Source: Pseudovirgaria hyperparasitica (taxonomy: Eukaryota > Ascomycota > Dothideomycetes > Acrospermales > Acrospermaceae). From it: a DNA stretch of 64,000 nt. The translations under genes and the position numbers were made by a program. The DNA lies in contig NW_022985556.1 of assembly GCF_010093815.1 (NCBI RefSeq), forward strand, positions 566,941-630,940, given 5' to 3'. Shown here piece after piece: positions 3,111 through 49,798 of the stretch. Position 1 is the stretch's first letter; every line of letters starts with the position of its first letter. The notes below the pieces were generated by a model that made no database searches, had not been told where the DNA came from, and was given only the letters and a program-made list of their open reading frames with translations.

Positions 3111-3160
3111 TTAGAGCACCCGAACTAGTGGCCTAGTAGTTATTAGTTCGGGTACTCTAA
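3111..3160. repeat. Gy1 convergent inverted repeat (copy B)
   Basis: Arms 3111-3127 and 3144-3160 are 17 nt each with one mismatch around a 16-nt spacer. The repeat lies between the pol end and the opposite-strand region, as in copies C, D and E. Confidence 0.87.
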
Positions 3161-14762: not shown

Positions 14763-15011
14763 ATAATTCTTAGGAAAAACTTCTTTTACATCCCCAAGAG
14801 GCTAACTTGGTCCATTCGGGGTAATATAGTAAGATATATACCTTAATCGATAGAGCACACCGAGTACACTAACTACTACTATATATACGTATGTATAGCG
14901 TCGAAACCAAGACGTTATCGCTGTATAAAGATATATATATACCCTCTTAAAATCCTCACGGAGATAGAGGCACGGACTATACTACTAGAACGCCGATACG
15001 CTAACCCTCTT

Positions 15012-15042
15012 TTATTAGTTAAGGGTAGCCCTTAACTAATAA
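15012..15042. repeat. 5' palindrome of LINE1
   Basis: Perfect 14-nt arms (TTATTAGTTAAGGG and its complement) surround a 3-nt loop (TAG). It ends 2 nt before the ORF1 ATG at 15045. It could act as an RNA stem-loop in the 5' UTR or as a DNA site for a dimeric protein. The same 31 bp recur at 19801-19831. Confidence 0.93.
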
Positions 15043-15044
15043 AT

Positions 15045-16480
15045 ATGGCGGCCTTAGATACCGATATACCCCGGTATATACCGGATATACCCCTACTAGT
15101 ACGATAGAAAAGGCTATATAGTAATATTACTAAGGGTAACTATATACCTATCTAAAACGTAGAACACATCTAAAGGCGTACGCTACTATAGATAGACGGA
15201 ATAAAGGGGACCCCGAGAGGGGAAACCCTTCTAGATTATATTAACTACTAGGTAGCACGTATAGAGAAGGAAGCTAGAGAGGGCTAGAAGACCCTTCTAT
15301 ATATATTCTAGGACCTTATCCGGAATCTAAAGGGAATTATAGAGGAGAAGAAGAAGATATAACTAGGAGGACCGGAGGGTAGGCTCGACTAAATAGAGGC
15401 TAGCCTACGTAGAATCTAGGAGGAACTTACTTAAGGTAAGCGCCCTAGTATATAGATATAAATAGTAGTAATACCGGAGGCTATACCATGGGCCCCCCGG
15501 ACCGGTGACGCGGCGTATAGTATATACGTTATAATCTAGAATAAGGACACCCTAGTATAGGTCTAGTAAGTATCCCTAAAGAATATAGTAAGTAAGATTA
15601 ACGAATAAAAGGGAATATAGTTAAATATTATCGTCGCTAAACTTACGCTAGGAGGAGTAGTACTTACCACGATAACGAATATCGCGTAGTAGACTATCTT
15701 ACACGATCTAAACGCGATTAGTAGTATCTTTCTAGGCGCCTCTATTAGGGCGGCTATATACCCGATATAGATATACTCTATACCCGTAAGCGGATAGGTT
15801 ATTAGAGAAGAGGATATTACGTAGATAGAATAGTTAAATAAGCGAAAATACCTAGGGATTAAGATTATAAGAGTATAGTAGAAGAATATATAAGGGATTA
15901 AAACTAGATCGAAGGTATACTCTACTATAATAGTAGAGCTTAAGGACCCCGCCCTCGCGTATTAAATTATATAAGAGGGATTTCTAGCGGAAGGGGAGCT
16001 TCTTATAGCGGAACTATAGGATAGAGTATAGGCGATAATATAGTGCTTTAACTATTAGGGATACGGGTATACGGTATAGCGGTACTTCTAAAAGACTAGG
16101 TATAGGTAGTATTAATAAGAATATAGTACCTAGGAGTGCCCCTACGGGATATAAGGAGAGGGCTAGAGGGATAGGGACACGGCGAAGTACTCTAACTATA
16201 ATGGTAAGCACCCATCGTAGTCGGCTACGTACGCGAAACGTAAATAGGTTACTAAATATATCTACTTAATCCGGATAAAGGGAGTAAGGTAGCTATAAAC
16301 GATACGACCTACTACTATTCCTCTCTTTACTATAATACTACTATTATAGACTACCTCCTTATAAGGAAGCGGTTAGAAATAGTAAACTATCCCGAGAAAG
16401 CTAATAATAGGACGGCCCTAAGGAATTACTAAGGCCGCCGCCGTATAAGGATAGTCGCGTCTTAGAGGAACGAATATATA
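15045..16480 (+). pseudogene. LINE1 ORF1 (RNA-binding, zinc-knuckle protein)
   Basis: The start MAALDTDIPRY is taken from the ATG 2 nt after the palindrome; LINE3 has the same start in a good context (CCATGG). In Tad1-like LINEs, ORF1 encodes a nucleic-acid-binding protein that packages the element RNA. From about 16044 the frame shows a CFNC-type zinc knuckle followed by a second His/Cys cluster and GKHPSW (16203-16220), the usual Tad1 ORF1 C-terminal pattern. The frame from 15045 to 16203 is uninterrupted by indels, but many CAG/CAA codons are now TAG/TAA. The end is approximate; ORF2 follows in another frame. Confidence 0.78.
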
Positions 16481-16499
16481 GGCCTATATATTCCCTAGC

Positions 16500-19400
16500 A
16501 CCTAATAAGAGACTAAGATATACTTCTAATTATATAGGTAAACGTATAGTATAAACGTGAGAACTAGGCGATACTCCTTAAGGAGACCGGAGCTATAATA
16601 CTCGCTATATAGAAGCTATATAAATACTACTAGACGAATAAACTAATAACACACCTAGGATATTATATAATATACCCCCTAGGACCGGAGAGGAGAGTCC
16701 TCTTCTATATCTATAAGTCTATTCTACTCTTATTATAGTCGTATACTAAACGGGATAACCTCTAGATAATACTATACCTCTAGACGAATATTAGACTCCT
16801 CTATATATATAATATATATAATTAGAACCAATCGCTTTAGGCGGATAATATACTTAAGGGCACTACCAAGCTAGGATAATATATCCTCCTAGGAGACTTT
16901 AACCTCTATTATAGCTAGTAGGGTAGACTAACCGTTACCCGCGAAGAGCTTCGAGCTAGAGAACTACGTACCTAATACTACGGCTTTCTATACCTTCTTA
17001 TACTAGTAGGATAGATTACCTAGCGAAAATATAAATAAGATAAGGGCGGATCTATACTCGACCTTACCCTAGCCACTAGATATATTTATAATAGAACTTA
17101 ATACTACCGCCTAAGCCTTATATAGATAGACTCTAACTATAAATATATAGAGACCGTAATAGATATATCTACCCCTTAAGACTAACGAGGGCGATAGCTA
17201 TAGAAGGATACTAACTAGGAAAAGTACCTAAAGGACCTAGAATCGATGATCCTAGACCCGTCTATAGTCGACGTATCTAATGGCCCGGCTATTAACCAGG
17301 CCGTGAATATACTCCTATAGGCGTACTAGGGAGTAAGAGATAAACACGTGCCGTACTAAATATATAGACCCCTAGACCCGAAAAGTATACCTTAAGTATA
17401 AGAGTATAGGCGAGAAGTCCGGAGATTATATATACGCGTATACTATAACCGTATACCTAAAGCGTAGAATAAATAGAGAGAGGCGAGAAGATAATAAGAT
17501 AAGGTCCTCTATAACGAGCGATATAAATAGTAGTGTATAGTCACGGATAGATATATACGTAATACTACTAGACTATAGTATATAGTAAAATGGGCTAAAA
17601 GTACCGCCTCCCCGACACCTATACTACTTATACCCCCCCTTATATATTAAGAAAAGACGTACTCTACGAGCCTCGAGAAAATAGAGATTCTATAAGAGGT
17701 TATATTCTCTCTTCTAGAACCCGTAGACCTATTAGATATTAACGGTACGGAATACCCGGAAGCTATAAGTATCTCTAGGGAAATTACGGACGATAATATA
17801 CTTAGCGCTATTAAGATACTCCTAAACGATAAAGCGCCCGGGCTAGACGGAATTCTAAATTAATATCTTAAGAGGACTATATAGGCGACCTTACTAATTA
17901 TAGGCCATATATTCCGAGTGTACGCCTATATAGGATACTATCTATAGAGCTTCCGAACTATATACACGGTTATACTTCTAAAACTAGAGAAGAGCCTAAA
18001 CACGCCGAAGGGATAGAGGCCGATCACCCTCCTCTTCTACCTTAGTAAGGTACTAGAAGCCACGATTACTAAGAAGATAAGTATAGTAGTATAGGTATAC
18101 GGCCTTCTCCTAGTAAACTAGAAGGCGAAGGTAGAAAGCTCCCTAATTATAGCTATTTAATATATCCTCGAGGTTATCTAGACTATATAGAAATAAGGAC
18201 GAGTCATTACACTACTCTCCCTAGACATAGTAGGGGCGTTTAATAAGGTAAACTATATAAGACTTATCTATAACCTCCGGATAAGGCGAATACCTAAGTA
18301 GATTATATAATTTATATAGTCCTTCCTCGCGTAAAGGACTACTTAAATATATATCCCTAGATACCGAAGTAAATATAAGGAGATAGTATACGGCATCCCG
18401 TAAGGGAGTACTATCTCCCCGATCCTCTTCCTCTTCTTTATAGTAGACCTCCTTTAGGGAATAGAATATATAGAGATAGTTAGATACGTGGACGATATAT
18501 ACCTCCTTATGGTCGATAGTAGTACTAGTAGAATATATACACGACTCGAACGAGACCACGAGAAATACGTCTAGTAGATAAAGCGCTATAGAGTAAAATT
18601 CGCACCTAAAAAATACTAGCTTATGTACTTTATTAACCGCTATAGAGAATAGGCTACTAGGGAGGGGGCACGTCGCCCCTAAATCGACGCCTTTATAGAA
18701 CTACTAGCATAGAGTATATAAGTACTCGGCGTTATAATCGATAATAAGCTAAAATAGGGACTATAGGTGGTACACGCTATCTCTAGAGCCCTCTAGGTAG
18801 AAACCGCTATACGCCGGATTACGGCATCTACGTAGGGAATAGCCTAGGATAAGGCGAGATAGCTATACGTCTCCCTAGTACGCCTAGCCTTTATATATAG
18901 ATACGAGTACTAGTATACGGCCCTTATATAAGCTTAGTAAGTAAAGCTTAAGTCTATATAAAACTATATACTCCGCCTTATCTCTAGTATATATAAAGCT
19001 ACTAACACGACGCTTCTCTAACGCGAGATAAACGTAATAAGTATATAGAACTTCTACTAGATATAGAGACTTATATACTTTACTAAATAATAAGTATAAG
19101 AACGTAGAGGAGATAGGGTATATACCTTCGCCGTAATACGCACACGTATCCACGCGTATTACTAGACCCTCCCTACTATAGGATAAACTCAAGTATAATA
19201 TAAATACTATATAGAGGCGGACTTAAGCTAGACCGCGTAGGAGGTTTAAAATAACCCGGATACTATCCTAAGCTAATAGAGCCCTAAGGAGCTTAGCCGC
19301 GTTATACGGTCGTGGATCTAGAATAAATAGAGAGAGGTACTTAAAGCCTAGTAGGTCTCCTAATAGAATAGGTATCTAGAATAGATCTAAGGGCCTTAGA

Positions 19401-19831
19401 AGGAACTAAGTAAATAGATATATAAAGGGCTAACGAAGGCCTAAGCATCTATACTCCTCTAAGCCCGAATAGGCGCTATAGGTCTTCTATATTACCTCTA
19501 CTAGAGAGGCGTCCTAGATATATCTCCCTAGTGCGAGGACTACGGCCGGAGAGATATAATACGCCACTACCTCGCGACGTGCTCTAGCCTCTATACCCTA
19601 AGATAAGCCCTCGTCCGTATAACGAGGACCTCCGATATTATATAATAGCTTAATAAGTACCTTAAGGATATTACCCGATAGATGCTCGTATACCTTCCTC
19701 TCCTCTAGTTCTAGTAGACCCGCGTATATATACCGGAAGAAGCCTAATATATACTAGAAGAACCCCGGTATACGTTAGAAGAACCCCGGGAGAACCGCGA
19801 TTATTAGTTAAGGGTAGCCCTTAACTAATAA
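16500..19831 (+). pseudogene. LINE1 ORF2 (endonuclease, reverse transcriptase, zinc finger)
   Basis: This ORF cuts the target and copies the LINE RNA by target-primed reverse transcription. Seen in a single frame are an N-terminal apurinic-type endonuclease with GDFNL at 16892; RT with NDKAPGLDG (about 17830), SLDIVGAFNKV (about 18221), GIP(Q)GSTISPILFLFF (from 18392) and the catalytic RYVDD (18482-18496); and a thumb region. A C-terminal His/Cys cluster (CEDYGRRDIIRHYLATC, about 19530-19585) resembles the LINE zinc finger. No RNase H motif was seen. The last codons show short repeats of EEPRYTLEEPRE type and run into TAATAA (19826-19831) inside the palindrome. There are many RIP stops but no frameshift between 16529 and 19831, about 1100 codons. 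The start is uncertain. Confidence 0.85.
19801..19831. repeat. 3' palindrome of LINE1, overlapping the ORF2 stop
   Basis: These are the same 31 bp as at 15012-15042, perfect 14-nt arms and a TAG loop. The right arm supplies the in-frame double stop TAATAA of ORF2. The distance from the first base of the RT GIPQGS motif to this palindrome is 1409 nt here, in LINE2 and in LINE3. Confidence 0.93.
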
Positions 19832-20050
19832 TCTCCGTACCTACACGTGCTACCTAAGGGTAAACTATTATAATATAGGCTATAGGCCTATAGGTAGCCC
19901 CTAGGGCTATATATATATAAAGAACGAGAGGATAGATAGAGCGTAGTTATGGATATAAGGGAGTTTTTCCTATTTATAGGTTTCTTCTTATATAGTAGCT
20001 TAGACTAGAGAAGGCATGCGCCTATAGAGTGGTACTCTACCTAGTTTACT
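19832..20050 (+). other. LINE1 3' UTR
   Basis: This is about 220 nt between the ORF2 stop and the (TTA)n tail, and it matches 29810-30031 of LINE2 on the other strand. No ORF is visible. In target-primed reverse transcription the 3' UTR is the part the RT recognises; whether the palindrome contributes is unknown. Confidence 0.7.
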
Positions 20051-20070
20051 AATATTATTATTATTATTAT
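20051..20070 (+). repeat. (TTA)n tail of LINE1
   Basis: A TTA/ATT triplet run ends the LINE. LINE2 ends in the same triplet run (29790-29812 on the minus strand) with a different number of units. Gy2-H resumes immediately after it. Confidence 0.9.
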
Positions 20071-29789: not shown

Positions 29790-32700
29790 ATAATAATAAT
29801 AATAATAATATTAGTAAACTAGGTAGAGTACCACTCTATAGGCGCATACCTCCTCTAGTCTAAGCTACTATATAAGAAGAAACCTATAAATAGGAAAAAC
29901 TCCCTTATATCTATAACTACGCTCTATCTATCCTCTCGTTCTTTATATATATATAGCCCTAGGGGCTATCTATAGGCCTATAGCCTATATTATAATAGTT
30001 TACCCTTAGGTAGCACGTATAGATACGGAGATTATTAGTTAAGGGCTACCCTTAACTAATAATCGCGGTTCTCCCGGGGTTCTTCCGATATATACCGGGG
30101 TTCTTCTAGTATATATCGGGCTTCTTCTAGTATATATATACGGGTCTACTAGAACTAGGGGAGAGGAAGGTATATAAGTATCTATCGGGCGACGTCCTTA
30201 GAGTACTTATTAAGCTATTATATAATATCGGAGGTTCTCGTTATATAGATAAGGGCTTATCTTAGAGTATAGAGACTAGAGTACGTCGTAAGGTAGTAGC
30301 GTATTATACCTCTCTAGCCGTAGTCCTCGTACTAGAGAGATATATCTAGGATACCTCTCTAGTAGAGATAATATAGAAGATCTATAGCGCCTATTCGGGC
30401 TTAGAGGAGTATAGATGCTTAGGCCTTTATTAGCCCTTTATATATCTATTTACTCGGTTTCTTCTAAGGCCCTCGGATCTATTCTAGATACCTATTCTAT
30501 TAGGAGGCCTACTAGGCTTTAAGTACCTCCCTCTATTTATTCTAGATCTATAACTATATAACGCGGCTAAGCTCCTTAGGGCTCTATTAGCTTAGGACGG
30601 TATCCGGGTTATTTTAAACCTCCTATATAGTCTAGCTTAAGTCCGCCTCTATATAGTATTTATATTATACTTAAGTTTATTCTATAGTAGGGAGGGCCTA
30701 GTAATATACGCGGATACGTGTACGTAGTACAGCGAAGGTATATACTCTATCTCCTCTACGTTCTTATACTTATTATTTAATAAAGTATATAAGTCTCTAT
30801 ATCTAGTAGAAGTTCTATATACTTATTATATTTATCTCGTGTTAGAGGAGCGTTATATTAGTAGCTTTATATACACCGGAGATAAGGCGGAGTATACGGT
30901 TTTATATAGACTTAAGCTTTACCCGCTAAGCTTATATAAGGGCTATATACTAGTACTTGTGTCTATATATAAAGGCTAGGCGTGCTAGAGAGATATATAG
31001 CTATCTCGCCTTATCCTAGGCTATTCCCTATATAGATACCGTAATCCGGCGTATAGCGGTTTCTATCTAGAGGGCTCTAGAGACGCCGTATACTATCTAT
31101 AGTCCCTATTTTAGCTTATTATTAATTATGATACCGAGTACGCGTATACTCTATGCTAGTAGTTCTATAAAGGCGTCGATTTAGGGGCGACGTGCCCCCT
31201 CCCTAGTAGCCTATTCTCTATAGCGGTTAATAAAGTACATAAGCTAGTATTTTTTAGGTGCGAATTTTACTCTATAGCGCTTTATCTACTAGACGTATTT
31301 CTCGTGGTCTCGTTCGAGTCGTGTATATATTCTACTAGTACTACTATCGACCATAAGGAGGTATATATCGTCCACGTATCTAACTATCTCTATATATTCT
31401 ATTCTCTAAAGGAGGTCTACTATAAAGAAGAGGAAGAGAATCGGGGAGATAGTACTCCCTTACAGGATACCGTATACCATCTCCTTATATTCACTTCAGT
31501 ATCCAGGAATATATATTTAAGTAGTCCTTTACGCGAGGAAGGACTATATAAATTATATAATCTACTTAGGTATTCGCCTTATCCGGAGGTTATAGATAAG
31601 TCTTATATAGTTTACCTTATTAAACGCCTCTACTATATCTAGGGAGAGTAGTATAATAACTCGTCCTTATTTCTATATAGTCTAGATAACCTTAAGGATA
31701 TATTAAATAGCTATAATTAGGGAGCTTCCTACCTTCGCCTTCTAGTTTACTAGGAGAAGGCCGTATACCTATACTACTATACTTATCTTCTTAGTAATTA
31801 TAGCTTCTAGTACCTTACTAAGGTAGAAGAGGAGGGCGATCGGCCTCTATCCCTTCGGTATATTTAGACTCTTCCCTAGTTTTAGAAGTATAACCGTATA
31901 TATAGTTTAGAAGCTCTATAGGTAGTATCCTATACGGGCGCACGCTCGGAATATATAGCCTATAATTAGTAAGGTCGCCTATATAGTTCTCTTAAGGCAT
32001 CGATTCGGAATTCTATCTAGCCTAGGCGCTTTATCGTTCGGGAGTATCTTAATAGCGCCGAGTATATCGTCCTCCGTGATTTCTCTAGGGATACTTATAG
32101 CTTCCGGGTATTCCGTGCTATTAATATCTAATAGGTCTATAGGTTCTAGGAGAGGTAATATAACCTCTTATAGAATCTCTATTTTCTCAAGGCTCGTGGA
32201 GTATGTCTTTTCTTAATATATAAGGGGAGGTATAAGTGGTGTAGGTGTCGGGGAGGCGGTGCTTTTGGCCTATTTTACTATATACTATAGTCTAGTAGTA
32301 TTACGTGTATATCTATCTATAACTATATACTACTATTTATATTACTCGTTACGGAGGACCTTATCTTATTATCTTCTCGCCTCTCTCTATTTATCCTATA
32401 CTTTAGGTATATGGTTATAGTATACGCGTATATATAATCTCTAGACTTCTCGCCTATGCTCTTATACTTAAGGTATACTTTTCGGGTCTAGGGGTCTATA
32501 TATTTAGTACGGCACGTGTTTATCTCTTACTCCCTAGTACGCCTATAGAAGTATATTCACGGCCTAGTCGATGGCCGGGCCATTAGATACGTCGACTATA
32601 GACGGGTCTAGGATCGTCGATTCTAGGTCCTTTAGGTACTTTTCCTAGTTAGTATCCTTCTATAGCTATTACCCTCGTTAGTCTTAAGGGGTAGATACGT

Positions 32701-33380
32701 CTATTACGGTCTCTATATATTTATAGTCGGAGTCTATCTATATAAGGCTTAGGCGGTAGTATTAAGTCCTATTATAAATATATCTAGTGGCTAGGGTAAG
32801 GTCGAGTGTAGATCCGCCCTTATCTTATTTATATTTTCGCTAGGTAATCTATTCTACTAGTATAAGAAGGTATAGGAAGCCGTAGTATTAGATATATAGT
32901 TCTCTAGCTTAAAGCTCTTCGCGGGTAATAGTTAGTCTACCCTACTAGCTATAATAGAGGTTAAAGTCTCCTAGGAGGATATATTATCCTAGCTCGGTAG
33001 TACCCTTAAGCATGTTATCTACCTAAAGTAATCGGTTCTAATTATATATATTATATATATAGAGGGGTCCGATATTTATCTAGAGGTGTAGTATTATTTA
33101 GAGGTTATTCCGTTTAGTATACGACTATAATAAGAGTAGAATAGACTTATAGATATGGAAGAGGACTCTCCTCTCCGGTCCTAGGGGGTGTATTATATAA
33201 TATCCTAGGTGTATTATTAGTTTATTTATCTAGTAGTATTTATATAGCTCCTATATAGCGAGTATTACAGCTCCGGTCTCCTCGAGGAGTATTACCTAGT
33301 TCTTACGTTTATACTATACGTTTACCTATATAATTAGGAGTATATCTTGGTCTCTTATTAGGTACTAGGGAATATATAGG
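29790..33380 (-). mobile_element. LINE2, 3' part (ORF2, 3' UTR, tail)
   Basis: This is the same subfamily as LINE1, on the minus strand. The (TTA)n tail is at 29790-29812, the 3' UTR runs to 30031, the palindrome is at 30032-30062 with the ORF2 stop, and ORF2 reads leftward from 33380. ORF2 shows RT GIL(Q)GS (31471 downward) and RYVDD (about 31382-31362). The endonuclease GDFNL is near 32980-32950. The 14-bp TSD CGCCTATTTCTATA lies at 29776-29789 and 42493-42506. The 5' portion lies beyond Gy2-F, at 40767-42492. ORF2 is full of RIP stops. Confidence 0.9.
30032..30062. repeat. 3' palindrome of LINE2
   Basis: These are the same 14-nt arms and 3-nt loop as in LINE1, at the ORF2 stop. The distance to the RT GIPQGS codon (31471) is 1409 nt, identical to LINE1 and LINE3. 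Confidence 0.93.
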
Positions 33381-33608
33381 TGTAAGAATAGGGTAGTTGG
33401 ATAGTAGTGTAGCCAGATGGAACAATGGGGTGTATTCTATTATAGAACGAATTACTACCGAACCCTTTCGGTAGGAATCCGAGAGTATATATATAAAGGG
33501 ACGCCGATCTATCTAGCACGTAACTATTTACCGCCCTTCACGTCACCTCCTAACCCTATTAGCTAAGGTATATATAGATCGGGTCCTACCTAAGGCTAAG
33601 TCCTAATA
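33381..33608 (-). repeat. 3' LTR of Gy2-F
   Basis: This is a 228-bp LTR. It keeps several TG and CA positions that are mutated in the 5' LTR (for example in its first 60 bp). The pair differs by transitions in CA/TG contexts rather than by random change. Confidence 0.92.
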
Positions 33609-34399
33609 ATTATCCCTCCCCTCTAGGAAGCTACCCTTAGCGACCTAGATCGTTACCTATCCCTATATCCCTATCCTAAGTCTCGTAAGACCTTAGTCGT
33701 TCTCTACGCTTCGTCTTAGATACTTACCGATATTCGCCGATCTAAGATTTACATAAGCGTTTTCCTAATAAACTAGATTTTATCCATCTTAACTTCTTAT
33801 ATAGGTGAGATTGCCTAATTAGGCCTAGCGTATTACGTGATATGATTAGGTAAGCCCGGGTACTACCTATATTAAAATCTTTTCTTAGAAATATTCCTTT
33901 CTTTAAAAAACTTCTTAACTCTTTATAGAGTTTTTTAGATTATTAGGTATATTACCCGATCCTTATAGATATAGATTTATATAGATTTACTACTATTTAG
34001 TGCGATTTACGTAATTTACTAATTTTCGTACCGTCCTTAGCTAGAAATAACATAATTCGTAATAATCCGTATAAATTAATAATAATTATAATATAGTTTC
34101 CCAAAATCTCGACGCTCTAAAGTAATTAGCGCGGAAATAGGCGCCTTCGAATAATCCCTATCTCGTATATGTTACCGACATGTCGAAAGCCATCGATCTA
34201 CCCCGACCTAGGCCGGGCTCTAATAATCTAGCTATATATTATTATGGTTGTCGCTTTCCGTCGTATATTGCTTACGGTAGTACTAAATCTATAATATACG
34301 GTACTTATATAACTAAGAAGCGTTATTACTTATAGGTATTTAAGTAAGTTCGAAGAACTTTACGTAGATTTACTTATATCGGTATAGATTACTACTAGG

Positions 34400-35070
34400 C
34401 CTCTAGTAACCCCTACTAATAAGGAGCGTGGTACTACCGATCGTAACGCCTTAGAGAAGGCTTTCTACGAGCTATATACCTAAGGTAAGGGTTACGCCTA
34501 GGAGTACGATTCTAATAAGATCCGTAAGGGTTTATTAGAATCTACTATAGCTATTATTACCGCGATTACTAGGTAATATCGTTTTTCTTAAATTATTATA
34601 GATTCTTACTAATATGTATTAATCTCTATAATAGTGCTAAAATCTCTACTACTTCGGACTTCTTTCTATATACCGGCGATATTAAAATTCCTAGAAAAGG
34701 TTCTAGTAAAAAGGCTAAGGTTCCTTCCTCGCGCGTGCTAAAGAGCCGTAAATTTAGAGAAGATGGCTCTAATCTAGAAGTTTCTATACTAACGGTATAT
34801 GGTTCTATACCGATCGTTGAATCTTTTCGCTAATTTATATAATTCTTAGCGTGCCCGCGCCGGTCCGTCCCTCTCTATCCCGGGTTCCGCCGCTCCGTAG
34901 GTTTCTATAGAAGAGTTCATAGCTATAAGGCGCGCTATATAGAATTTATAGCATCGGAATAAAAGGCTAGAGACTTATATTATAAAGCTCTATACTATAC
35001 TAAATAAGAACTAGCGGAAGGAATTAGATGCAACCATCGCGGTAATTAGTACTTCTACTCCTACTCCGAC
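34400..35070 (+). other. Antisense coding-like region of Gy2-F
   Basis: This is opposite strand to pol and matches 21480-22230 of G with transitions only by eye. The GDIKIPRKGSSKKAKVPSSR stretch (about 34674-34733) is open here too. It is broken and of unknown function. Confidence 0.42.
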
Positions 35071-35629
35071 TTAATCGGTTTAGATCTACACCAATCGGTG
35101 CTAATATATCTCTTTTATCTGGCGTTTTGGTTTTTTCGGTTTTAATTTTAAAGCGATCTTACTTCTTCTAGATAGATTAGTACGAGTTTATATAGATCTA
35201 TATAGATCTTTATATTTTCTTTTAGCTTTCTTAATTTTATCTTTCTTTAATAATAACTTCTTTAATCTCTTTAGTAATCTATACCGATCTATACCGATCG
35301 GCACCGATTTTCGATGTCCATTTCTCTTAGTGAATTATTTTTCTAAGTCTCTTTTTTAGTTAATTTTTTTTTAAAGTTCTAAGTTCGAACTTTCTAAGGA
35401 AGTTCCTCAATTCCTTAGAATGTTTTAAAGATCTATGTCTCTTTCACCTTCTTCCTTTTAGGCGGCCGTCCTTAGCGCCGAACTATACTAAAAAACATCG
35501 AATTACCGTACTTTAGCATAATTCTCTGCGATTCCGCGGCTTCCTTTGCTAATCGCTACTTATACGCTAATATCGCTGCTTTACTAATGTATATTACGGG
35601 TTCCTAAGTATCTTCGTTAGGATTATACC

Positions 35630-38600
35630 CTTTCTAATGAATTTTATATAGCCACGTGCCATCTTCGGCACGTTATTAGCCTAGTATCTACTTAACTTCG
35701 TAGATATCCGCACCTCCCTACGTAACTACTTTATATAACATCTATTTAGAATAATCCGGTAACGATAAGGCATGGAATAGCTCGAGAAGCGTGATATGGA
35801 ACATATTATATATCTTTAACGTGGGAGGGAGTTTCAACTCATACGCCTGGTCATTGATTACACGAGTAACCTTAAATAGACCTATTATCGTGTAGTTAAG
35901 CTTCTTCTTCAGCCTAATACTACGAATATTCTTACTATTTAGTAAAACTTTATCTCTAATATTAAAGATTATAGGCTTTCTACCCTTATTATGGTACGAT
36001 TTACTATAATCTATAGTATCTTATAATAACTTTATAACGCTTCTTTACGTTTAGAATAGTTCTATCGTAATCTCCGTCGCCTTAACGTTAGGCTACTCTG
36101 ATTTATACTAAGTTCCTATAAACTATACTTTATGGTTTCGACCGAAGTTTGCTTTGAACGGACTTACGTGGGTTAACGCATGTCGGCTATTATTATACGC
36201 GAATTCCGCGACATAGACTAACCTTACCTAGTTATCTTACTTATAGTTATAATATACGCGTAAATACGCCTTAACTATCTAATTCTACCGCTCTATCTAC
36301 CTATCTATTTATAGGTGGAACGTGGTACTAAGTTTCCGCTTAATTCCTAGTATATAGTAGAAATCCTTCTAAAACTTAGACGTTATCTACGGACCTCTAT
36401 CCGAAACTATACCATTCGGTATACTATAGAGCCGAACTACGTCACGAAGTAGTATATCTATAAGATCCGGTGCTTAGATTATCTTCCTTATAGGGATGTA
36501 GTATAACATCTTCGTAAATCTATCTAGAACTACGAGTAAACTATTATAAACATACCTAAGATACTTACTTAGGGGTAGATCTGTGATAAAATCCATCGAT
36601 AATTCTTTCCATGCCTCATTTAGCATAGGCAATGGCCTTAATTCACTATATAGCAAGTGTCTATATACTTTCGTATGCTGGTAAACGTTACACGTTTTTA
36701 CGTAGTCCTTTATATACTTATAAAGACCTAGCTAGTCGTACGTCCTTCGGATTAAATCGACCGTCCTTATAACGCCGAAGTGCCCTACTAACGCGTAATC
36801 GTGCTATTCCCTTAAAACATCGATTCGTAAGCCGCCTTCCGGCACGTAGAGTCGGCCTTAGAAGTAGATCGCGTCCGATCGTCGTTCCTACCTTAATAAC
36901 CACGGCGGTTCTATAGCTATTCTCTTTATACTTATAACTTTCTTTACTAATATATCGGAATTCTAGGTAGATTTAATTAAGTCTTTAAGGATTTACTCTG
37001 TTTCTTGGACGTTAGTTTAGATTACTTAATACCCGCTCTAATTCCCGCGGAGAGTCGCCGAAAGTGTCCTAGCTTCCGGCACTCTATTAGATAACTAGTC
37101 TTTTAGTATCTATAGTATAGTATAGTCTAAATTACACCGACTATCTACGTTATTCTACGACGATTTCTCATAATCTTTACGCCGTGATAGAGGATCTGCT
37201 TTATTCTCTCTTCTAGCTTTATATAAGATTTTAAAGTTAAATATTAACATCCACTTAGCCCAACGTACTTATCGGCGATTAAGGACCTTAGTCAATATAA
37301 AGTAACGTAGATTTGCGTGATCCGATAATAATTCAATCTAATATACAGAGCCTTCTAAATAATATCACTATTACTTAAAACTCTTAATAATTACAAGTAG
37401 TTCCTGGTCGTACGTGTTATAACGCGTCTCTATATCCGCCATTTTACGGGAAAAGAAGGCGACCGGGTACTATTACACCTTATCTTTCATATCTTTATAC
37501 GGTTAACTAATGATTCTAGTAATTACGAATCTAGATGCGTCTATTTCGACCTAAATATGCTTCTCGGGATCGAAATGCCTAAGAATCGGCGTAGTTATAA
37601 AGTAATTCTTTAACGATCGGAACGTATCTCGCGCTTCCGGCGTTAACTATATCTCGACCGACTTAGCTTTACGCTATACTCGCCCACCTATAGGGATTTT
37701 ACCGCCATTCTCGATAAGTTTATTAAGCGGCGCCGCAATTCGTAAGAAACCTATAATGAATTTACGATAATAGTTTACGAAACCTATAAACGTCCTGATT
37801 TAACGTATAGTAGTAGGTTCTAGCCATTCTATAATGGTCTTAACACGCTCTAGCTCCATTTTAAGGCCGCCGTGTATTATAATAAAGCCGAGAAACCCAA
37901 CTTCTTATTAGTAAAACTTATATTTAGACAACTTTACGTAGAGTTTATACTGTCTTAAACGATTTAGCACCAATTTCACGTGTTCTTCGTGATCCTACAT
38001 GCTATCGGAGTAAATTAGTATGTCATCGAGGTAAACTACGTAGATTACATTAAGTAATCCTATAAGTATAGTATTAATATATCCTTAGAACGCTCCTAGC
38101 GCATTTATTAGCCTAAACGGCACAATAGTATACTTAAAATAACCATATCTAGTCCGAAATGCGGTTTTCCACTTATCTCCGCGACGGATTCGAAGCCGGT
38201 AATATATATCTCATAAATCTAGCTTCATAAAGTACTTTGCCTTCGTTAATTAGTCTAAAGATTTACTAACTAATAGTAATGGGTGACGATTCTTCTTAGT
38301 CACTATATTTAGTACTCGATAGTCGATGTATAGACGTAAACTTCCGTCTTTCTTCTTCACGAAGAGAATAGGTACGCCGGCTAATAATATACTACGACGT
38401 ATCTAGCCTCTTCCGAGATATTCTTCGATATATTTATAAAGAACTTCGAGTTCTAGTCTCGAAAGTAGGTAAAGTAGACTATAAGGGACGTCTACTCCCT
38501 CTTCGAGCTCGATCTTTAGCTTATACGGCCTATGGTTAGGGAGAAGTAACGCGTCTCCTACCGAAAACACATCCGTATACTACGAATATACGTCAGGTAG

Positions 38601-40381
38601 CGTGTCTTTACCCCGATTATTACCATCCTCTTCATCTTCATCGACGATCGATAGGGATATAAGATAGATTAGCAACGATCGGGTCCGCACGGCGAGGTTC
38701 CATGCCTCCTTACTAATAGTTACGACTTACTAGTATAATTTACCGCGATGTCGACGGAACGTTAATGTCTCCTTCTAAAAATCGAGGATTGGGTTTAGGC
38801 GTTTAAGCTAAGGCATCCCTAGAATTATATTCTATTAGCTAATATTAGCCACGATGAATTCATTAGACATCTACTATTTTATTATCTTTGAGTTATGAAC
38901 TTCGTAATTCGTTATAGTTTTACCTAAAGTTCTAACTTTATGTCTATTAACTACAATGGTTCAGCTAACTTTACTAAGATCGTATAATAATCTATACTCC
39001 TTAGCGAGAATCGATAAAATATAGTTATCTTCTATACTAGTATCCACGAGGGCCTATATAGTTTTATTACCATTTACTATAGATAACGATACTTTTAGTA
39101 ATATTAGGTCTTTACTCGCCGGAAGGCGCTGCGGCTCCTCCTAAGTATATATAATTTAGCTAAGAACGCGGTTAGGTCTCGCGTACTAGCCTATTCTTTT
39201 TTTGGATTCTTATAGTTAGGCGAAATATATCCCTTTTCTCTATACTTATAGTAATAAAGTGCGCTATGATCCTACTGTTTTACGATAGGCGTTACATTTA
39301 AGCCTATGCCTTATCCTTTTCCGTATTAGGAACCACCGCCTCGATTGTTTTAGTATCCTCTTAACGCGTTTCTACCCCGATTTACGCTCTTCTAGCGTTA
39401 ATCGCGGTAAGGTTACTCTTAATCGAACGTATTCGATCGACCTCGTTTCTAACCCGTATAGGGTTCGTCGGTTTTGCCTAGAGAGCCGCGTTCCTTAAGG
39501 ATGCGGTAGTGTTCGTTAGCTTTCTCCTCTAATTTATATAGATGGTTAAAACTTAATAATACTATTCCTAATCTTTCGCGGATTAACGGGAGTAGTACTT
39601 CGCGAAACTAGAATATACGAATATTTTCCTATAGTATAGGGATATTATCCTAGAGGTTTTATAGGTATTATAGTAGTTAAGTAGGTGTCTGGTTCGGTCG
39701 TTATACCACGCTTCTTAACTTAGATAGTACCTTTCTTTCGCGTTCTCCGTTAGTTCCGAGGGTATTTAGTATAAATATAGCTAAATACTCCCAGGTTGTC
39801 GCCGATAGTAGCTTGGCTTCTTTCTATCTATCCTATTAATCGCGGGATTATGAACCTAAGTAACGTTCTCCGAATGAAATGCGTTATACTTCGGTAGAAA
39901 AGAGTATAGGGTTGTTAAGGAAGTACTTCTCGTAGTCTCTCTTCTAATCTTTCCACTTCTTTTGGTTCTTCCCTATAAATATAGTCGGATCTTTAGGTTT
40001 CGGCACACCTAAGGAGGGAGTAGGGTAAATTGGTAACGAAGCGGCCGGGTATACGGTGGATTATCGTAACTCTAATGGTAGGTGAACTAATTCCGCCTGA
40101 ATTAGTATAGGAAGTCGTCCACCTACTATCGTTCCGCGTAGTCTTTTAAGAGACTCGTTAAGTTCTCGTCGTTTTGCGAGGAGTTTCGTACGTTCGGTCT
40201 ATTCTTTAAGGATCTATATCTCTCGGGCTTGATTGGCGATGTGCTCCTGTAGTTCGGCGATTAATGGTTGTAATTCCTTGTATAGCTCTGCCACGACTCG
40301 TTGTCTAGCTTCCTATCATAGGAAGTCGCTTAGTGTATCTACTATTTCCTTATTAGAAAGTTCCGTGATTCGGTCGAACAT
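35630..40381 (-). pseudogene. gag-pol of Gy2-F (fossil)
   Basis: gag starts MFDRITELSNKE at 40381. Protease, RT (FTKLDLR, YLDDILIYS), RNase H, integrase (DFITDLPLSK, VLDRFTKM) and chromodomain follow in Ty3/gypsy order with the same spacing as in G. F retains the RT catalytic box better than G does. It is a broken fossil with many RIP stops. Confidence 0.88.
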
Positions 40382-40538
40382 CTCTACTTCTCTATTAAGA
40401 ACGGCCGGATTTAATACCGATTATAGAGGATCCCTGTTATTTAATGTAGTGTTACTTGTCCCTATAGTGGATCGTGTCGACCTTCTTGGTTCTAGTTGGA
40501 CTATCTTAACTATAGTACTATATAGGGAGTAATTCGAA

Positions 40539-40766
40539 TGTAAGAATAGGGTAGTTGGATAGTAGTATAGCTAGATAGAATAATAGGGTGTATTCTATTA
40601 TAGAACGAATTACTACCGAACCCTTTCGGTAGGAATCCGAGAGTATATATATAAAGGGACGCCGATCTATCTAGTACGTGACTGTTTACCGCCCTTCACG
40701 TCACCTCCTGACCCTGTTAGCTAAGGTACGTGTAGGTCGGGTCCTACCTAAGGCTAAGTCCTAACA
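40539..40766 (-). repeat. 5' LTR of Gy2-F
   Basis: This is a 228-bp LTR ending CCTAACA on the plus strand, followed by TSD ATAGG. It has the hairpin CTACCGAA...TTCGGTAG and a TATATATATAAAGGG stretch, read as CCCTTTATATATATA on the sense strand and a plausible TATA region. Confidence 0.92.
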
Positions 40767-42492
40767 ATAGGCCTATATATTTATTCCTCTAAGACGCGAC
40801 TATCCTCGTATAGCGGCAGCCTTAGTAATTCCTTAGGGCTATCCTATTATTAGCTTTCTCGGGATAGTTTACTATTTCTAACTACTTTCTCGTAAGGAGG
40901 TAGTCTATAGTAGTAGTATTATAGTAAAGAGAGGAACGGTAGTAGATTACATTATTTATAGCTACCTTACTCCCTTTATCCGGATTAAGTAGATATATTT
41001 AGTAATCTATTTGCGTTTCGTGCACGTAGCCGACTACGATAGGTGCTTACTATCGTAGTTAGAGTACTTCGTCGTATCTCTATCCCTCTAGCCCTCTCCT
41101 TATATCCCGTAGGGGTACTTCTAGATACTATATTCTTATTAATACTATCTATACCTAGTCTTTTAGAAGTACCGCTATACCGTATATCTATATCCCTAAT
41201 AGTTAAAGTACTATATTATCGCCTATACTCTATCCTATAGTTCCGCTATAAGAAGCTCCCCTTCTACTAGAAATCCCTCTTACATAATTTAATATACGAG
41301 GGCGGGGTCCTTAAGCTCTACTATTATAGTAGAGTATGCCTTTAATCTAGTTTTAATCCCTTATATATTCTTCTACTATACTCTTATGATCTTAATCTCT
41401 AGGTATTTTTACTCGTTTAACTATTCTATCCGTGTGATATCCTCTTCTCTAATAATCTATCCGCTTATAGATATAGAGTATATCTATATCGGGTATATGG
41501 CCGCTCTAATAGAGGCGCCTAGGAAGATACTACTAATCGCGTTTAGATTACGCGAGATAGTCTACTACGCGATATTCGTTATTATAGTAAGTACTACTCC
41601 TTCTAGCGTAAGTTTAGCGGTAATAACATTTAACTATATTCCCTTTTATTTATTAATCTTACTTACTATATCCTTTAGGGATGCTTACTAGACCTATACT
41701 AGGGTATCCTTATCCTAGATTATAACGTATATACTATACGCCACATCACCGGTCCGGGGGGCCCATAGTATAGCCTCCGGTATTACTACTATTTATACCT
41801 ATATACTAGGGCGCTTACCTTAAGTAAGTTCCTCCTAGATTCTATATAGACTAGCCTCTATTCGGTTAAGCCTACCCTCCGGTCCTCCTAGTTATATCTT
41901 CTTCTCCTCCTCTATAATTCCCTTTAGATTCTAGATAAGATTCTAGAATATATATAGAAGGGTCTTCTAGCCCTCTCCGGCTTCCTTCTCTATATATACT
42001 ACCTAGTAGTTAATATAATCTAGAAGGGTTTCCCCTCTCGGGGTCCCCTTTATTCCGTCTATCTATAGTAGCGTACGCCTTTAGGTATATTCTATATTTT
42101 AGATAGGTGTATAGTTACCCTTAGTAATATCGCTATATAGCCTTTTCTATCGTACCGGTAGGGGTATATCCGGTATATACTAGGGTATATTAGTGCCTAA
42201 GGCCGCTATATTTATTAGTTAAGGGCTACCCTTAACTAATAAAAGGGGGTCGGCGTATTAGTATTCTAGTAGCGTGGTCCGTGCCTCTATCTCCGTGAGG
42301 ATTTTAAGAGGGTATATATATATCTTTATACGGTAATAACGTCTTGGTTTCGACGCTATACGTATATACGTGTAGTAGTAGTTAGTATACTCGGTATACT
42401 CTATTAATTAAGATATGTATCTCGCTATATTACTCTAAATAGACTAAGTTAGCCTCTTAGGGATGTAAAAGAAGTTTTGATTTTAAAGTTAT
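40767..42492 (-). mobile_element. LINE2, 5' part (5' UTR, ORF1)
   Basis: This is the minus-strand continuation of LINE2 right of Gy2-F. The 5' end is at 42492, directly against the TSD 42493-42506, so LINE2 is full length at its 5' end. The palindrome (42212-42242) precedes the ORF1 start position; the start ATG itself has become ATA (42209-42207). ORF1 runs leftward with the zinc-knuckle region near 41215-41100. The sequence matches 14763-16480 of LINE1. Many RIP stops. Confidence 0.88.
42212..42242. repeat. 5' palindrome of LINE2
   Basis: Perfect 14-nt arms and a 3-nt loop, 2 nt upstream of the ORF1 start position on the minus strand. Same sequence as the 3' copy at 30032-30062. Confidence 0.93.
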
Positions 42493-43323: not shown

Positions 43324-43841
43324 TAAAACTTCTCACACCCCAACGGACTAAACTGGTTAATTCGGGGTAAAACAGCGATTTACATACATTAAACGATAGA
43401 GTATACCGAGTATAATAACCTCCGACATACGTGCGTACGTGTAGCGTATAATACGCGACGATACCAACGTGTAGAGATACTATATATATACGCTCGAAGA
43501 CTCTTCGATAACACGAGCATAGACTATATCTAATAAACGCCGACACGCCGACCCCCTTTTATTAGTTAAGGGCTGCCCTTAACTAATAACCATGGCGGCC
43601 TTAGGTATCGTAATACCCTAGTATACGCTAGATATGCCCCTACTAGTACGGTAGAAACGGCTATATAGCGACATTAATATAGATAGCTAGACACCTATCT
43701 AAAATATAGAAACTAACTAAGGGTGCGAAGCGCTATAGAAAACCTAGACTAAGGGGACCCTAAGAGGGGAGACCCTCCTAGATAAAATCGAATACTAGGT
43801 AATACGTATAGAGAGGGACGCTAAGGAGAGAAAGAAGACCC
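43324..43841 (+). mobile_element. LINE3, 5' part (5' UTR, ORF1 start)
   Basis: This is a Tad1-like LINE of a sister subfamily to LINE1/LINE2. It begins near AAAACTTCTCACACCCC, like the LINE1 start, and has the palindrome at 43559-43589. ORF1 begins MAALGIVIP at 43592 in the context CCATGG. It is cut by Gy1-D at TSD GACCC (43837-43841) and continues at 51930. Confidence 0.86.
43559..43589. repeat. 5' palindrome of LINE3
   Basis: The same 14-nt arms as in LINE1/LINE2, with loop CTG instead of TAG. It ends 2 nt before the ORF1 ATG (43592). The arms are conserved between the two subfamilies although surrounding 5' UTR sequence has diverged. Confidence 0.93.
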
Positions 43842-44079
43842 TGTTAGGACGGGAACTATAATAGACCTATATAGACCATTCTAATCCATGTAGCCACGTA
43901 GTGGCTAGAGCTAGGTTAAGTTAGCTAAGTTAAGCGAGGTTACTATATAAGTAGACCATATAAACCGATTCCTACTTATTAGGAATTAACCTTATATAAG
44001 AGTAAGATTACTCTATAAATATATTCCTATATCTCTCTATGAACTATTAGACTACTATCCTACGTCTTTACTCTTTATA
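43842..44079 (+). repeat. 5' LTR of Gy1-D
   Basis: This is a 238-bp LTR, TGTTAGGACGGG...TTTATA. The internal region starts TTTTAATTCC, which is not a usual tRNA-type primer-binding site. Transitions only versus the 3' LTR by eye. Confidence 0.93.
43944..43951 (+). promoter_or_regulatory. Likely TATA element of the Gy1 LTR
   Basis: TATATAAG lies about 100 nt into the LTR and is conserved in the B, C and E LTRs on their sense strands. This is where a pol II start for LTR-driven transcription would be expected. Inference from motif and position only. Confidence 0.5.
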
Positions 44080-44120
44080 TTTTAATTCCTCTCTATATAG
44101 TATAATAGTAGCTTATAGAG

Positions 44121-47100
44121 ATGGCTTCTACTACGCGCTATAATACCCGTGGTACTACCTTATATAAGAGACTCTCTCTAAATCTAAACGAAGAGAATAG
44201 TCTCCCTACGACCACCTCTACTAATAAGTATACTCTATAGACTATTATACTAATAACTAGTACGGTATTCTATATAACTATAGAAGATTACCTAGATAAT
44301 AAGGAAGGAGTCTATTATACTCTATTGCGGTCTAGTTTATACTATACTAGACCCATCCTTACTATAAGACTAGACCCTATTAACGTTAACGAATTAATTC
44401 ATTAGAACTAACTAACGTTAACCACGCCTTACGACGACGTATATACTAAGCTATACACGGAGAGGTAGCGTTAGGCTTAGCTTAAGTAGTAACTTCGCGA
44501 ACTCGATAAAGCGCGAGGACAAACCGCTAGACTCGAAGCCGTACTACGCGCTTTAGTACTAGTAGTAACTAACCTATACTAATATAGACTAACTTAAGCC
44601 GAAATAGTCTAACTAAGTCTACTACTATCCTAGTTACCTTAGCCTAAGAAACTATCTTACTTCGACGGTAAAACCAGGAGGAGCTTTTATAAATAGACTT
44701 ACTAGTATAGCCGATTCTTCTACCTATTCATAAACGATAGTAATAAGATTAGGTTTATATAGAACTACCTAGACCTAACGCTATCTAAACGTTAGATGGT
44801 ATATCGAATTAAATACCCTAAGGATACGTATAACTAGGACACGTTTACTAAATTCCTTCTTTAATACTTCGGTAATAGAGCCGAGCGACGCGAATAGGCT
44901 TAGAGCTATATCTTTAAGACTTAATAGCGAGAGAGATAATCCCCGTTATAACTTCTTAAATACCTCCGACCTCTTTAGAGAGAAGCTAAGAAAGATTATA
45001 TAGTTTAATAATACGACGACTTTAAAAGGTCCCTTAACCCGAGCGTAAAGGAATACATCGACCTTATAACGTCTATCTCTACTAACCTTTAGGCACTCGC
45101 GAATCTCGTAGAACGATATTAGTATATAATGAATAACTAACGTCGTATAGGTATATAACTATCTCTATTAATCTAATCCGATGCGAAATCGTCTAAAGAG
45201 GACCGGTTTAGTAATAGATCGCGCGGAATACCTCGTGGGTACTACCACTCTACGAACTCGAGAAGACGAGACCCGTACCGCGGATCTTTCTACTAGTTAA
45301 TATATTAAGACGCGAGAAACGACTCGTATAAACGACCTAAAGTTACCTACTATACCTATGGTAGAATAGGCTATATAGTACCCGAGTACCGCTTAGGGAA
45401 ACCACCGAATACTAATATAGATACTAAGTTAGTTATATACTATAAGTGCTAGTAGCTAGGACATATCGCGCCTAACTATCTAGTATATAATATAAAAAAC
45501 TAACTATCTATAAGGAACCCTCGCGACTTATAGGCGTAACTAAAATAGAGGGATAACTAGCTAACTAGTATATCGAACTATAGGCTAGGCCTATCAAGGT
45601 CCCTCGTGGATAATATTAGACCGTAATACTTAATAGCGGTTTAGCTACTAACGTTATATCAACTTAACGAGCACAAGAACTTAATATTAATATTTAAGTA
45701 CTAATAGATACTACCTTCTATAGTATCGACAGTCCTATTAAATCATAGGGTACCTATACTATTAAATACAGTATCTAGGATAGCGGGGGGAAGTGGAAAC
45801 CCTACTACTTAACCTTTATCGTGGTAGATAGTCCCTTTAACATGATCCTTAGTATACTATAGCTCGAAAAATATAACCCGAAACTAGACTTTATCTAGAA
45901 AACAGCTGGCTAGCGCATATACCCACTATAATAGAACCTAGTATAGCTAGTCGACGACGAATAATTCTAGAAGGACTATAAAAAGGTAATCTCCGCTATC
46001 TACGTCCTCTTACTTACTTAAAATAGAGAGCTTAGTATTAAAGTAGACGAAAACCTACTATATTAGTATAAAATATACTAATATATCGCGTTAGCAATCA
46101 ACTCGTCCGAATTACCTTAATACTAATCTACTAACCTTACTATTAACCTCGAAGACGGTTAATAACCCCTACACGGACCTATCTACCCTCTATTAGAACC
46201 CGAGCTATAGGTCCTCCGAGAATATATCGAAAAGAACCTTACGCGAGGATAGATTAGGCCTAGTATATCCCTAGCCGGAGCTCTAATCCTCTTTATAAAG
46301 AAGAAGGATAGAAGTCTCTATCTATATATCGACTACCGTAGCCTAAATAACATTACGCGAAAGAATCATTACCTACTACCTCTTATCTCCGAGTCTATTA
46401 ATAGACTAGAGCGCGTGAAGATCTTTACTAAGCTCGATCTACGCGACGTCTACTACCGCCTATATATTAAGAAGGGCGATAAGTAGAAAACGGCGTTTAG
46501 GACCCGTTATAGATACTTTAAGTATATAGTAGTCCCTTCTAGACTAACTAACATACTAGGAACCTTCTAAGCGTATATTAATAACGCGCTAGTAGGTCTA
46601 CTTAACACGACGTGCATCGTATACCTTAATAATATCCTTATCTTCTCTAATAATAAAGAAGAATATATCTAGCACGTACGCGTAGTCCTAGATAGGCTAG
46701 AAAAACATAAGCTATATATTAAGCTATCTAAATATAAGTTCCACTAGGACTATATTAACTTCCTTGGCTTCGTTATTACTAATTAAGGTATAACTATAGA
46801 AAGGGATAGAGTTACTACTATTATAGACTAGCCTAAACCAAAATTAGTTCGAGATATACATGTCTTTATTAGATTCGCTAATTACTACCGAAAATTCGTT
46901 AAGCATTTCTTCCGGCTAGTAGTACTACTTAACGCGCGTACTACTACTATAGATTCGTCTATTACGGTCCACGGTAGATAGAAATAGCGTAATATTAAAT
47001 TATAGTCTATAGAATTATTAGAAGGCGAAAGGGCCTCCTTCGAGAAAATCAAAGAGGCATTTATAACTACTCTATTACTAGTGCACTTCGACCTAACTAA

Positions 47101-49190: not shown

Positions 49191-49519
49191 TATTATTAAT
49201 GTAAGTATAGTAACGTCGCGGTCGTTGTAAAAAGAAGAAGGATACTATAGAGAACGAAGTACTAAACTAGGAAATCTAGACGCGCACTAGGAAAACTCTA
49301 TATAGTAGCCCTATAATTTAAGTATTATACGGTTACTAGACGCAAAGAAAGCGTAAATAACTATTTTAGAAACGCGACGCGACACACTATAATAGAATAA
49401 CATAGAAGAGTCTAGAATGGACTAATATAGACTATTATACACGAGAAAAACATAGGACTAAGAACCTAAAAAAAGGTACCCTACTATAGAATTAAACTCT
49501 TAATACGAAATATAAAAGG

Positions 49520-49569
49520 TTAGAGTACCCGAACTAATAACTACTAGGCCACTAGTTCGGGTACTCTAA
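49520..49569. repeat. Gy1 convergent inverted repeat (copy D)
   Basis: Perfect 17-nt arms, 49520-49536 and 49553-49569, around a 16-nt spacer. It sits between the pol end (plus strand) and the antisense region (minus strand). Confidence 0.92.
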
Positions 49570-49798
49570 TGGAATTCATAGAGATAAACTAATTTATATA
49601 TGGTGCCTATACTTAGGTAACTTAAGGAAAATCAGAATATAGAAACCGATAGTTATAAGCTAAGTAAGCGTATATATAATATCATTAAGTTAAGAATTAA
49701 ATTACTAGAAACTAGCTAATAGGTATCTAAATGGTCTAAAAAGGACTAAAATAGATAAAAGCCAGGTAAATAGAGCCGGCGTACACCACCTATAGTAG

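Follow-up and report, generated by a model that had tools for sequence, protein, structure and literature searches.

A 31-bp palindrome bordering coding regions of LINE and Ty3-type retrotransposons in Pseudovirgaria hyperparasitica, a candidate translational signal

Introduction

A stretch of 64,000 nucleotides from the genome of the ascomycete Pseudovirgaria hyperparasitica (referred to here as the window) contains a LINE whose coding region is enclosed by two copies of one palindrome, the first ending just before a start codon and the second covering a stop codon. A preliminary description, made from the sequence of the window, presented this arrangement as a feature of LINEs and offered binding by the LINE ORF1 protein or reverse transcriptase (RT) as one explanation. 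The locus thus raises the question of which elements carry the palindrome, where in these elements it lies, and what activity could account for its presence at both ends of a coding block.

Results

The palindrome in the window

The window is a nest of retrotransposons with a strong RIP-like signature (TpA/ApT of 1.66; (CpA+TpG)/(ApC+GpT) of 0.27), of the kind expected in a filamentous ascomycete. The palindrome has the pattern TTATTAGTTAAGGG-NNN-CCCTTAACTAATAA, i.e., 31 bp with 14-nt core arms and a 3-nt loop. Five exact copies are present in the window (starting at 15012, 19801, 30032, 42212, and 43559), compared to none in 100 dinucleotide shuffles of the same sequence. The copy at 15012 to 15042 (plus strand) is an exact match with the arms and loop previously described for it; the longest exact arms at this place measure 15 nt (15011 to 15025 and 15029 to 15043). 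It belongs to LINE1 (14776 to 20070, plus strand), an RIP-mutated element of family A recognized by self-comparison of the window and by endonuclease and RT matches. The label Tad1-like, which we retain for these LINEs, is the name used in the preliminary description. As had been reported, the palindrome ends 2 nt before the ORF1 ATG (15045 to 15047), so that its last A is the base at −3, and it recurs at the ORF2 stop: the TAG at 19805 to 19807 lies within the left arm of the second copy (19801 to 19831).

The statement that LINE1, LINE2, and LINE3 all carry both palindromes was slightly overstated; it holds in full for LINE1 and LINE2. In LINE2, a minus-strand element of family A, self-comparison placed the 5′ part at 40767 to 42478, preceding an inserted LTR element (33380 to 40766), and the 3′ part at 29793 to 33380, past that insertion; the 5′ and 3′ palindromes (42212 to 42242 and 30032 to 30062) are both exact. 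LINE3, on the plus strand, belongs to family B, which is ∼73% alike to the family A of LINE1 and LINE2 in the same comparison. Its 5′ part (43325 to 43842) and 3′ part (51924 to 56446) are separated by another inserted LTR element (43844 to 51924). The 5′ palindrome of LINE3 (43559 to 43589, loop CTG) is exact and stands 2 nt before the ATG, but its 3′ palindrome retains 23 of 31 nt (56424 to 56446) because an LTR element was inserted there. The inserted element occupies 56446 to 64000, and its junction (56446/56447) falls in the right arm of the palindrome.

The LINE host encodes a non-LTR RT (PF00078, E value of 6e-16; 18008 to 18736 on the plus strand of LINE1) with an APE-type endonuclease upstream (PF14529, E value of 0.0038, which is under the curated cut-off; 16802 to 17095, same strand). 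A CCHC knuckle found by eye near 16044 lies ∼1 kb past the LINE1 ATG in the same frame, and Pfam gave no match in ORF1. ORF2 ends GAT TAT TAG within the palindrome arm, in the frame of the endonuclease and RT matches. This frame was chosen on the basis of the RT match together with C-terminal protein text recognizable by eye; stop rates alone were not relied on, because the ORF2 frame with the fewest stops differs from that of the RT match. In the alignment, families that differ in their spacer letters (AT, CC, and TC) have the ATG 2 nt past the palindrome, while in the genome search described below this spacing is fixed by the design of the LINE 5′ flank pattern. No ORF stands out upstream of the LINE 5′ palindrome, where stop rates are similar across frames. 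The 3′ palindrome, at the stop codon, is ∼240 nt from the LINE end and does not coincide with the RNA 3′ end.

Genome-wide distribution

The bracketing of LINE coding regions recurs genome-wide, but it is not a LINE feature, since the same palindrome is found in a Ty3-type element. A search of 35.0 Mb in 59 contigs (the window is part of contig 8) retrieved 426 exact copies and 531 copies with up to 3 mismatches; a control with the reversed pattern gave 0. The preliminary description had expected arm complementarity to be retained in other copies. It is retained in the 426 exact ones, whereas 105 of the 531 carry 1 to 3 mismatches to the pattern: 41 are changed only in the GGG/CCC part (467 − 426), 8 carry TCAAGGG or CCCTTGA, and ∼56 make up the remainder.

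Site assignment employed four flank patterns, each joined to half of the palindrome, which returned 187 LINE 5′, 163 LINE 3′, 61 Ty3 5′, and 63 Ty3 3′ matches (sum, 474) and left at least 57 of the 531 copies uncaught. The copies missed are probably from older, more heavily mutated families similar to those of three inexact copies (L048 to L050), which are heavily mutated LINE families ∼70 to 78% like the others. All 67 distinct copies retrieved with their flanks lie at four coding-border sites (17 at the LINE 5′ site, 21 at the LINE 3′ site, 9 at the Ty3 5′ site, and 20 at the Ty3 3′ site). The same is true of 50 of 50 places among the matches listed in contig order, 49 of which were assigned by flank and one (C1:2656864) by its spacing of 4789 bases. 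Among the copies classified in these two ways (67/67 and 50/50), none was found outside these retrotransposons.

The expectation that other copies would not lack one of the two palindromes was largely borne out. For the Ty3-type element, 52 of 61 5′ copies have a 3′ copy on the same strand 7.0 to 7.6 kb downstream, and 57 of 61 have a partner within 30 kb. The corresponding LINE figures are lower bounds, as pairing used the 100 listed 5′ copies and 89 listed 3′ copies: at least 53 of the 100 are followed by a 3′ copy at 4.6 to 5.1 kb, and at least 62 of the 100 have a partner within 30 kb.

Genome searches for an exact copy followed by G (in either orientation) and for the exact 25-nt core with an outer letter other than A both returned nothing. 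We also counted perfect palindromes of any sequence (arms of ≥12 nt, loop of ≤6 nt, after a TA-repeat filter) in 344,264 bases, of which 329,593 are distinct. The palindrome studied here accounted for 63 occurrences, 2 of them with a substitution adjoining the loop, and four other palindromes appeared a single time each, a ratio biased toward this palindrome because most of the sequence was fetched around its copies.

The Ty3-type element

An identical palindrome brackets the RT-containing block of an unrelated LTR element, with the two copies ∼7.3 kb apart. One copy of this element, read over 16 kb, measures 11.4 kb from end to end and has 364-bp direct repeats that are 93.7% alike. Pfam detected RT_RNaseH (PF17917, E value of 2.9e-17) between the palindromes, a weak RVT_1 match upstream of it (E value of 0.17), and Integrase_H2C2 downstream (E value of 5.2e-5; 23.7 bits against a cut-off of 25.5). 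LTRs and the order RT, RNase H, and integrase characterize a Ty3-type element, and both are present. No similarity to the LINEs was detected by blastn beyond the palindrome itself. In the sense direction, the LTR is followed by a 3.2-kb stretch with a low-stop frame, the palindrome, 10 nt, and the ATG of the RT ORF; after the integrase come a further open stretch, the second palindrome, ∼150 nt, and the LTR.

In the 3.2 kb past the 5′ LTR (copy L017), one frame contains 58 stops, compared to 106 and 117 in the others. We take this stretch as a putative gag from its position and reading frame; Pfam gave no match there. The gag-type frame, lowest in stops in 6 of 8 intervals upstream of the Ty3 5′ palindrome, enters the palindrome as CGG ATT ATT AGT TAA and stops at the TAA in the left arm. 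The pol frame is the same, and pol begins as TAA ATG 10 nt past the palindrome, so that 30 nt separate the gag-frame stop from the pol ATG, with a second TAA directly before the latter. This in-frame TAA is present in 61 of 61 Ty3 5′ rows; the search pattern contains it and allows 3 mismatches overall, so a few losses could be missed. It is unlikely to be an RIP product throughout, as 26 of 61 rows retain the C of a CpA located a few bases upstream and 7 of 61 retain an intact pol ATG (both by eye). A gag-pol signal based on stop readthrough was considered and set aside, since it needs a single stop and the second in-frame TAA precedes the pol ATG in all 61 rows.

At the 3′ border, every frame entering the Ty3 copy meets a stop in the left arm or directly before it (TGA or TAA). 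We are less sure of the frame of the last ORF, which appears to end GAT (or AAT) TAT TAG; this frame has the fewest stops in 5 of 8 intervals, including the three nearest to the Ty3 3′ copy. The stretch of ∼4 kb from the integrase to the 3′ palindrome (L012:4200-8180) shows a lowered stop density in a frame other than that of pol and possibly holds an extra ORF; Pfam gave no match in this stretch. The loop of the Ty3 5′ palindrome is CTA in 9 of 9 distinct copies (L005 to L007, L012, L018, L020, L022, L033, and L035), while that of the 3′ palindrome is CTG in 11 of 20, and CTA may therefore be original at the 5′ site rather than a product of RIP. Five very similar, extremely RIP-mutated Ty3 3′ borders (L028 to L032) are located on three contigs, a likeness that suggests duplication of already mutated DNA.

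Conservation and folding

The arms of the palindrome hold no CpA or TpG, leaving RIP hardly anything to mutate, and are nearly invariant. The copies retrieved with flanks are RIP damaged (flank (CpA+TpG)/(ApC+GpT) of 0.0 to 0.7), and in the most mutated families, C-to-T or G-to-A changes appear in the GGG/CCC part. Over all row pairs, the flanks of LINE families A to E differ at 19 to 37% of sites, with 3 to 13% transversions; the palindrome shows no transversion across these families except A/T at the loop center. Within LINEs, however, conservation of the palindrome exceeds that of its flanks only moderately and is not extreme, given that the arms offer RIP no preferred target and that other stretches are also conserved. 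We regard as the strong evidence the identity of the palindrome between LINE and Ty3-type elements. In less mutated copies, the LINE 3′ (family A), Ty3 5′, and Ty3 3′ sites also share GA before and TC after the palindrome, extending it to 35 bp.

The loop center is A or T in every copy with flanks, the loops being CAG, CTG, and their RIP products. Family A has CAG or TAG at both ends, and most 3′ copies of family B share this loop, one copy (L004) reading CTA instead. The loop is CTG or CTA in the 5′ copies of families B and C and at both Ty3 sites, and TAG or TAA in the 5′ copies of family D. The idea that loop orientation serves as a code was dropped, as CAG and CTG vary by site and family without a rule. 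Eight copies (L015, L019, and L036 to L041) share the same single change at one symmetric position, giving TCAAGGG or CCCTTGA, and are distributed over the LINE 5′, LINE 3′, and Ty3 3′ sites. The change is single-sided and, in the sense RNA, places G opposite U in 6 copies and C opposite A in 2. These eight copies could be read as relics of an ancestral CpA in the arms; the less RIP-mutated copies, however, mostly have TTAA, and we judge the change to be a derived or rare variant, which may represent a hot spot or an old shared variant. As to insertion with target duplication, no direct repeats were seen by eye at the palindrome borders.

As RNA, the 31-mer alone folds to −15.8 kcal/mol, a value reached by none of 200 shuffles. 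Five longer contexts, folded whole with their flanks, gave −24 to −35 kcal/mol (z of −3.7 to −4.2; at most 1 of 200 shuffles as low). Two copies paired with each other reach −44 to −49 kcal/mol, compared to approximately −31.6 for two separate hairpins. The palindrome contains stop codons in all three frames, a property shared by 12.7% of composition-shuffled palindromes. Rfam returned nothing at gathering scores in the window; near the first copy it gave three chance-level matches (E values of 0.6 to 3.3), two of them to microRNA families on the minus strand over the palindrome. The exact palindrome had 0 occurrences in viral_contigs and genome_contigs, which says little because these are viral and prokaryotic collections.

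Discussion

We infer that the palindrome works in RNA, as a short hairpin that punctuates translation. In the reading that we favor, with a probability of roughly 40%, it would be a conserved cis-acting border hairpin acting in translation and read by its sequence via a factor common to both retrotransposon classes. Ribosomes arriving in any frame would meet a stop codon inside the palindrome. A factor that both classes can use, in the simplest case an RNA-binding protein of the host, would hold the hairpin or recognize its sequence. The hairpin would then favor renewed initiation at the AUG 2 to 10 nt downstream, i.e., at LINE ORF1 or the Ty3 RT ORF, and the 3′ palindrome would close off the last ORF. 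Gag and Pol of the Ty3-type element would thereby become separate products; a readthrough Gag-Pol fusion is disfavored because the second in-frame stop directly precedes the pol ATG.

This translational reading is the most economical in view of the four fixed sites, the letters shared between classes, the starts 2 to 10 nt downstream, and the stops in or before the left arm. It is also supported by the stops in all frames, by the hairpin energy of −15.8 kcal/mol, by the end of ORF2 as GAT TAT TAG within the arm, by the A at −3, and by the description of coupled termination-reinitiation for the LINE SART1 (excerpts of PMC5972666). Structure by itself would not call for identical letters in the two classes, so that a reader of the sequence has to be assumed. 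Several observations speak against the translational reading. No ORF is evident that could be restarted at the 3′ copies, and none stands out upstream of the LINE 5′ copy. The gag-frame stop is 30 nt from the pol ATG, while close or overlapping stop-start sites are typical in the excerpted account (PMC5972666). The identity of gag depends on position and frame only, and the last Ty3 ORF is assigned to its frame with less certainty. The 12.7% of shuffled palindromes that stop all three frames, the RIP damage in the copies with flanks, the only moderate conservation within LINEs, and the variation of the loop between CAG and CTG by site, as would be expected of a strand-symmetric DNA site, also weigh against it.

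The broader proposal is that one sequence-specific palindrome serves as the cistron-border signal of two unrelated classes through a common host reader, having arisen by convergence or been passed between elements; we put it forward tentatively, as something that may well turn out otherwise. Descent does not explain the identity between LINE and Ty3-type elements, as blastn found no other similarity, and the identity points to a shared reader or to an exchange of regulatory parts between element classes. If true, retrotransposon RNAs of both classes would carry one punctuation mark in common, which ends translation in every frame and determines where it begins again. Should a host factor be the reader, a single RNA mark may let the host regulate several retrotransposon classes, or may let these classes exploit the host. 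If the palindrome is translational punctuation, it would show how this Ty3-type element makes Pol without fusion to Gag.

Other activities could leave a palindrome at these sites. The symmetry that allows a hairpin would also suit a double-stranded DNA site bound by a protein dimer of the host or the element, whether for silencing, for transcription control, or as a nuclease target. Such a site would be an odd palindrome of 31 bp centered on A:T, extended to 35 bp in the less mutated copies of three of the sites. A loop center that is A or T in every copy with flanks makes it the same site in either orientation, and the unrelated elements have in common a sequence rather than just a structure, the exact 25-nt core of which has A as its sole outer letter. 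We nevertheless find a DNA site unlikely: the copies lie inside a transcribed unit, their link to start and stop codons should be of no consequence to a DNA-binding protein, and no classified copy (67/67 and 50/50) lies outside these retrotransposons. Nor does it seem probable that the palindrome is a functionless or selfish mini-element, copied into retrotransposons by, for example, RT template switching at hairpins and spared by RIP in its arms. The same letters in unrelated elements with unshared flanks, the occurrence of both loop orientations by site, and arms without CpA or TpG are what such an element would leave, and mobile short palindromes are discussed for fungal mitochondrial DNA (excerpts of PMC7218506). 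Instead of scattered insertion sites, however, all classified copies occupy four fixed coding borders; exact copies with a G after them are absent in both orientations, and the palindrome predates the split of LINE families that differ at 19 to 37% of flanking sites.

Pairing between RNAs is another candidate, as any two copies are mutually complementary and gain in energy by pairing (−44 to −49 versus approximately −31.6 kcal/mol for two hairpins). The 5′ and 3′ copies could in this way circularize an RNA, or copies in two RNAs could dimerize genomes for packaging, as palindromes seed the genome dimers of yeast Ty3 in the available part of PMC11381356, and a need for identical sequence between copies would follow. 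The yeast Ty3 dimer site, however, is described there in the 5′ part of the RNA, whereas the first copy in the Ty3-type element is >3 kb from the 5′ end; pairing also leaves the tie to start and stop codons and the same letters in LINE and Ty3-type elements unexplained, and we consider it rather improbable. Least credible, and in our estimate very improbable, is a hairpin dedicated to LINEs that signals cis-preference or target-primed reverse transcription through binding of the LINE ORF1 protein or RT. The RTs of stringent LINEs are described as recognizing a 3′ stem-loop (PMC5135761 and PMC4176376, in excerpt). The LINE 3′ copy, however, is placed at the stop codon ∼240 nt short of the LINE end, and the same palindrome is present in a Ty3-type element with no blastn similarity to LINEs beyond it. 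The binding proposed in the preliminary description is thus disfavored as a full explanation: the LINE's own ORF1 protein or RT is unlikely to suffice as the reader because the identical palindrome brackets an unrelated Ty3-type block.

A literature search, in which subscription journals were thinly covered, yielded no description of this palindrome or of one palindrome common to LINE and Ty3 elements. For the short palindromes of fungal mitochondrial DNA, Yin et al. 1981 is reportedly cited in this connection. The PstI palindromes, double-hairpin elements, and GC clusters of these genomes are numerous short repeats, some flanking genes, that have been proposed to be processing signals or mobile elements; in the excerpted account (PMC7218506), they have other sequences and flank tRNA genes or lie in intergenic regions, whereas the palindrome described here occupies fixed sites in nuclear retrotransposons. 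The Conserved Hairpin Site of GalEa (Copia) elements is short, partly palindromic, and kept across distinct fungal retrotransposon families, with an extended form kept between distant families in five species (excerpts of PMC5445492). As described there, it differs in its sequence, its 9-bp arms, its restriction to Copia, and its position directly after the 5′ LTR in place of the primer binding site. We considered and rejected this identity for the palindrome, the copies of which lie at coding borders of LINE and Ty3-type elements.

With respect to translation, the closest systems are SART1, in which coupled termination-reinitiation needed a structure downstream of the stop-start site, and certain RNA viruses. 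The present case appears likewise to place a stop and a start in close order with a predicted RNA structure, in a retrotransposon. In the known cases, stop and start overlap or are close and TURBS pair to 18S rRNA, and the available excerpts (PMC5972666) do not mention one palindrome common to the two ends of a coding block. The dimer palindrome PAL6 of yeast Ty3 is also a palindrome in a Ty3-type RNA, but it is 6 nt long, lies in the 5′ part of the RNA, and acts as a kissing loop according to the portion of PMC11381356 available. The 3′ stem-loops recognized by RT are, similarly, stem-loops in LINE RNA; they are located in the 3′ UTR or RNA tail and not at start or stop codons, and the excerpts at hand (PMC4176376 and PMC5135761) mention no sharing with LTR elements.

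For the window's two other LTR families, no similar double palindrome was found among 25 of the 53 inverted-repeat pairs, and one of these families has a single hairpin beyond pol. This different hairpin, with 17-nt arms and a 16-nt loop, recurs at one place in the family (49520 to 49569, 3111 to 3160, and 458 to 507). It lies ∼400 nt past a weak pol chromodomain match (E value of 0.06), apparently in 3′ non-coding sequence.
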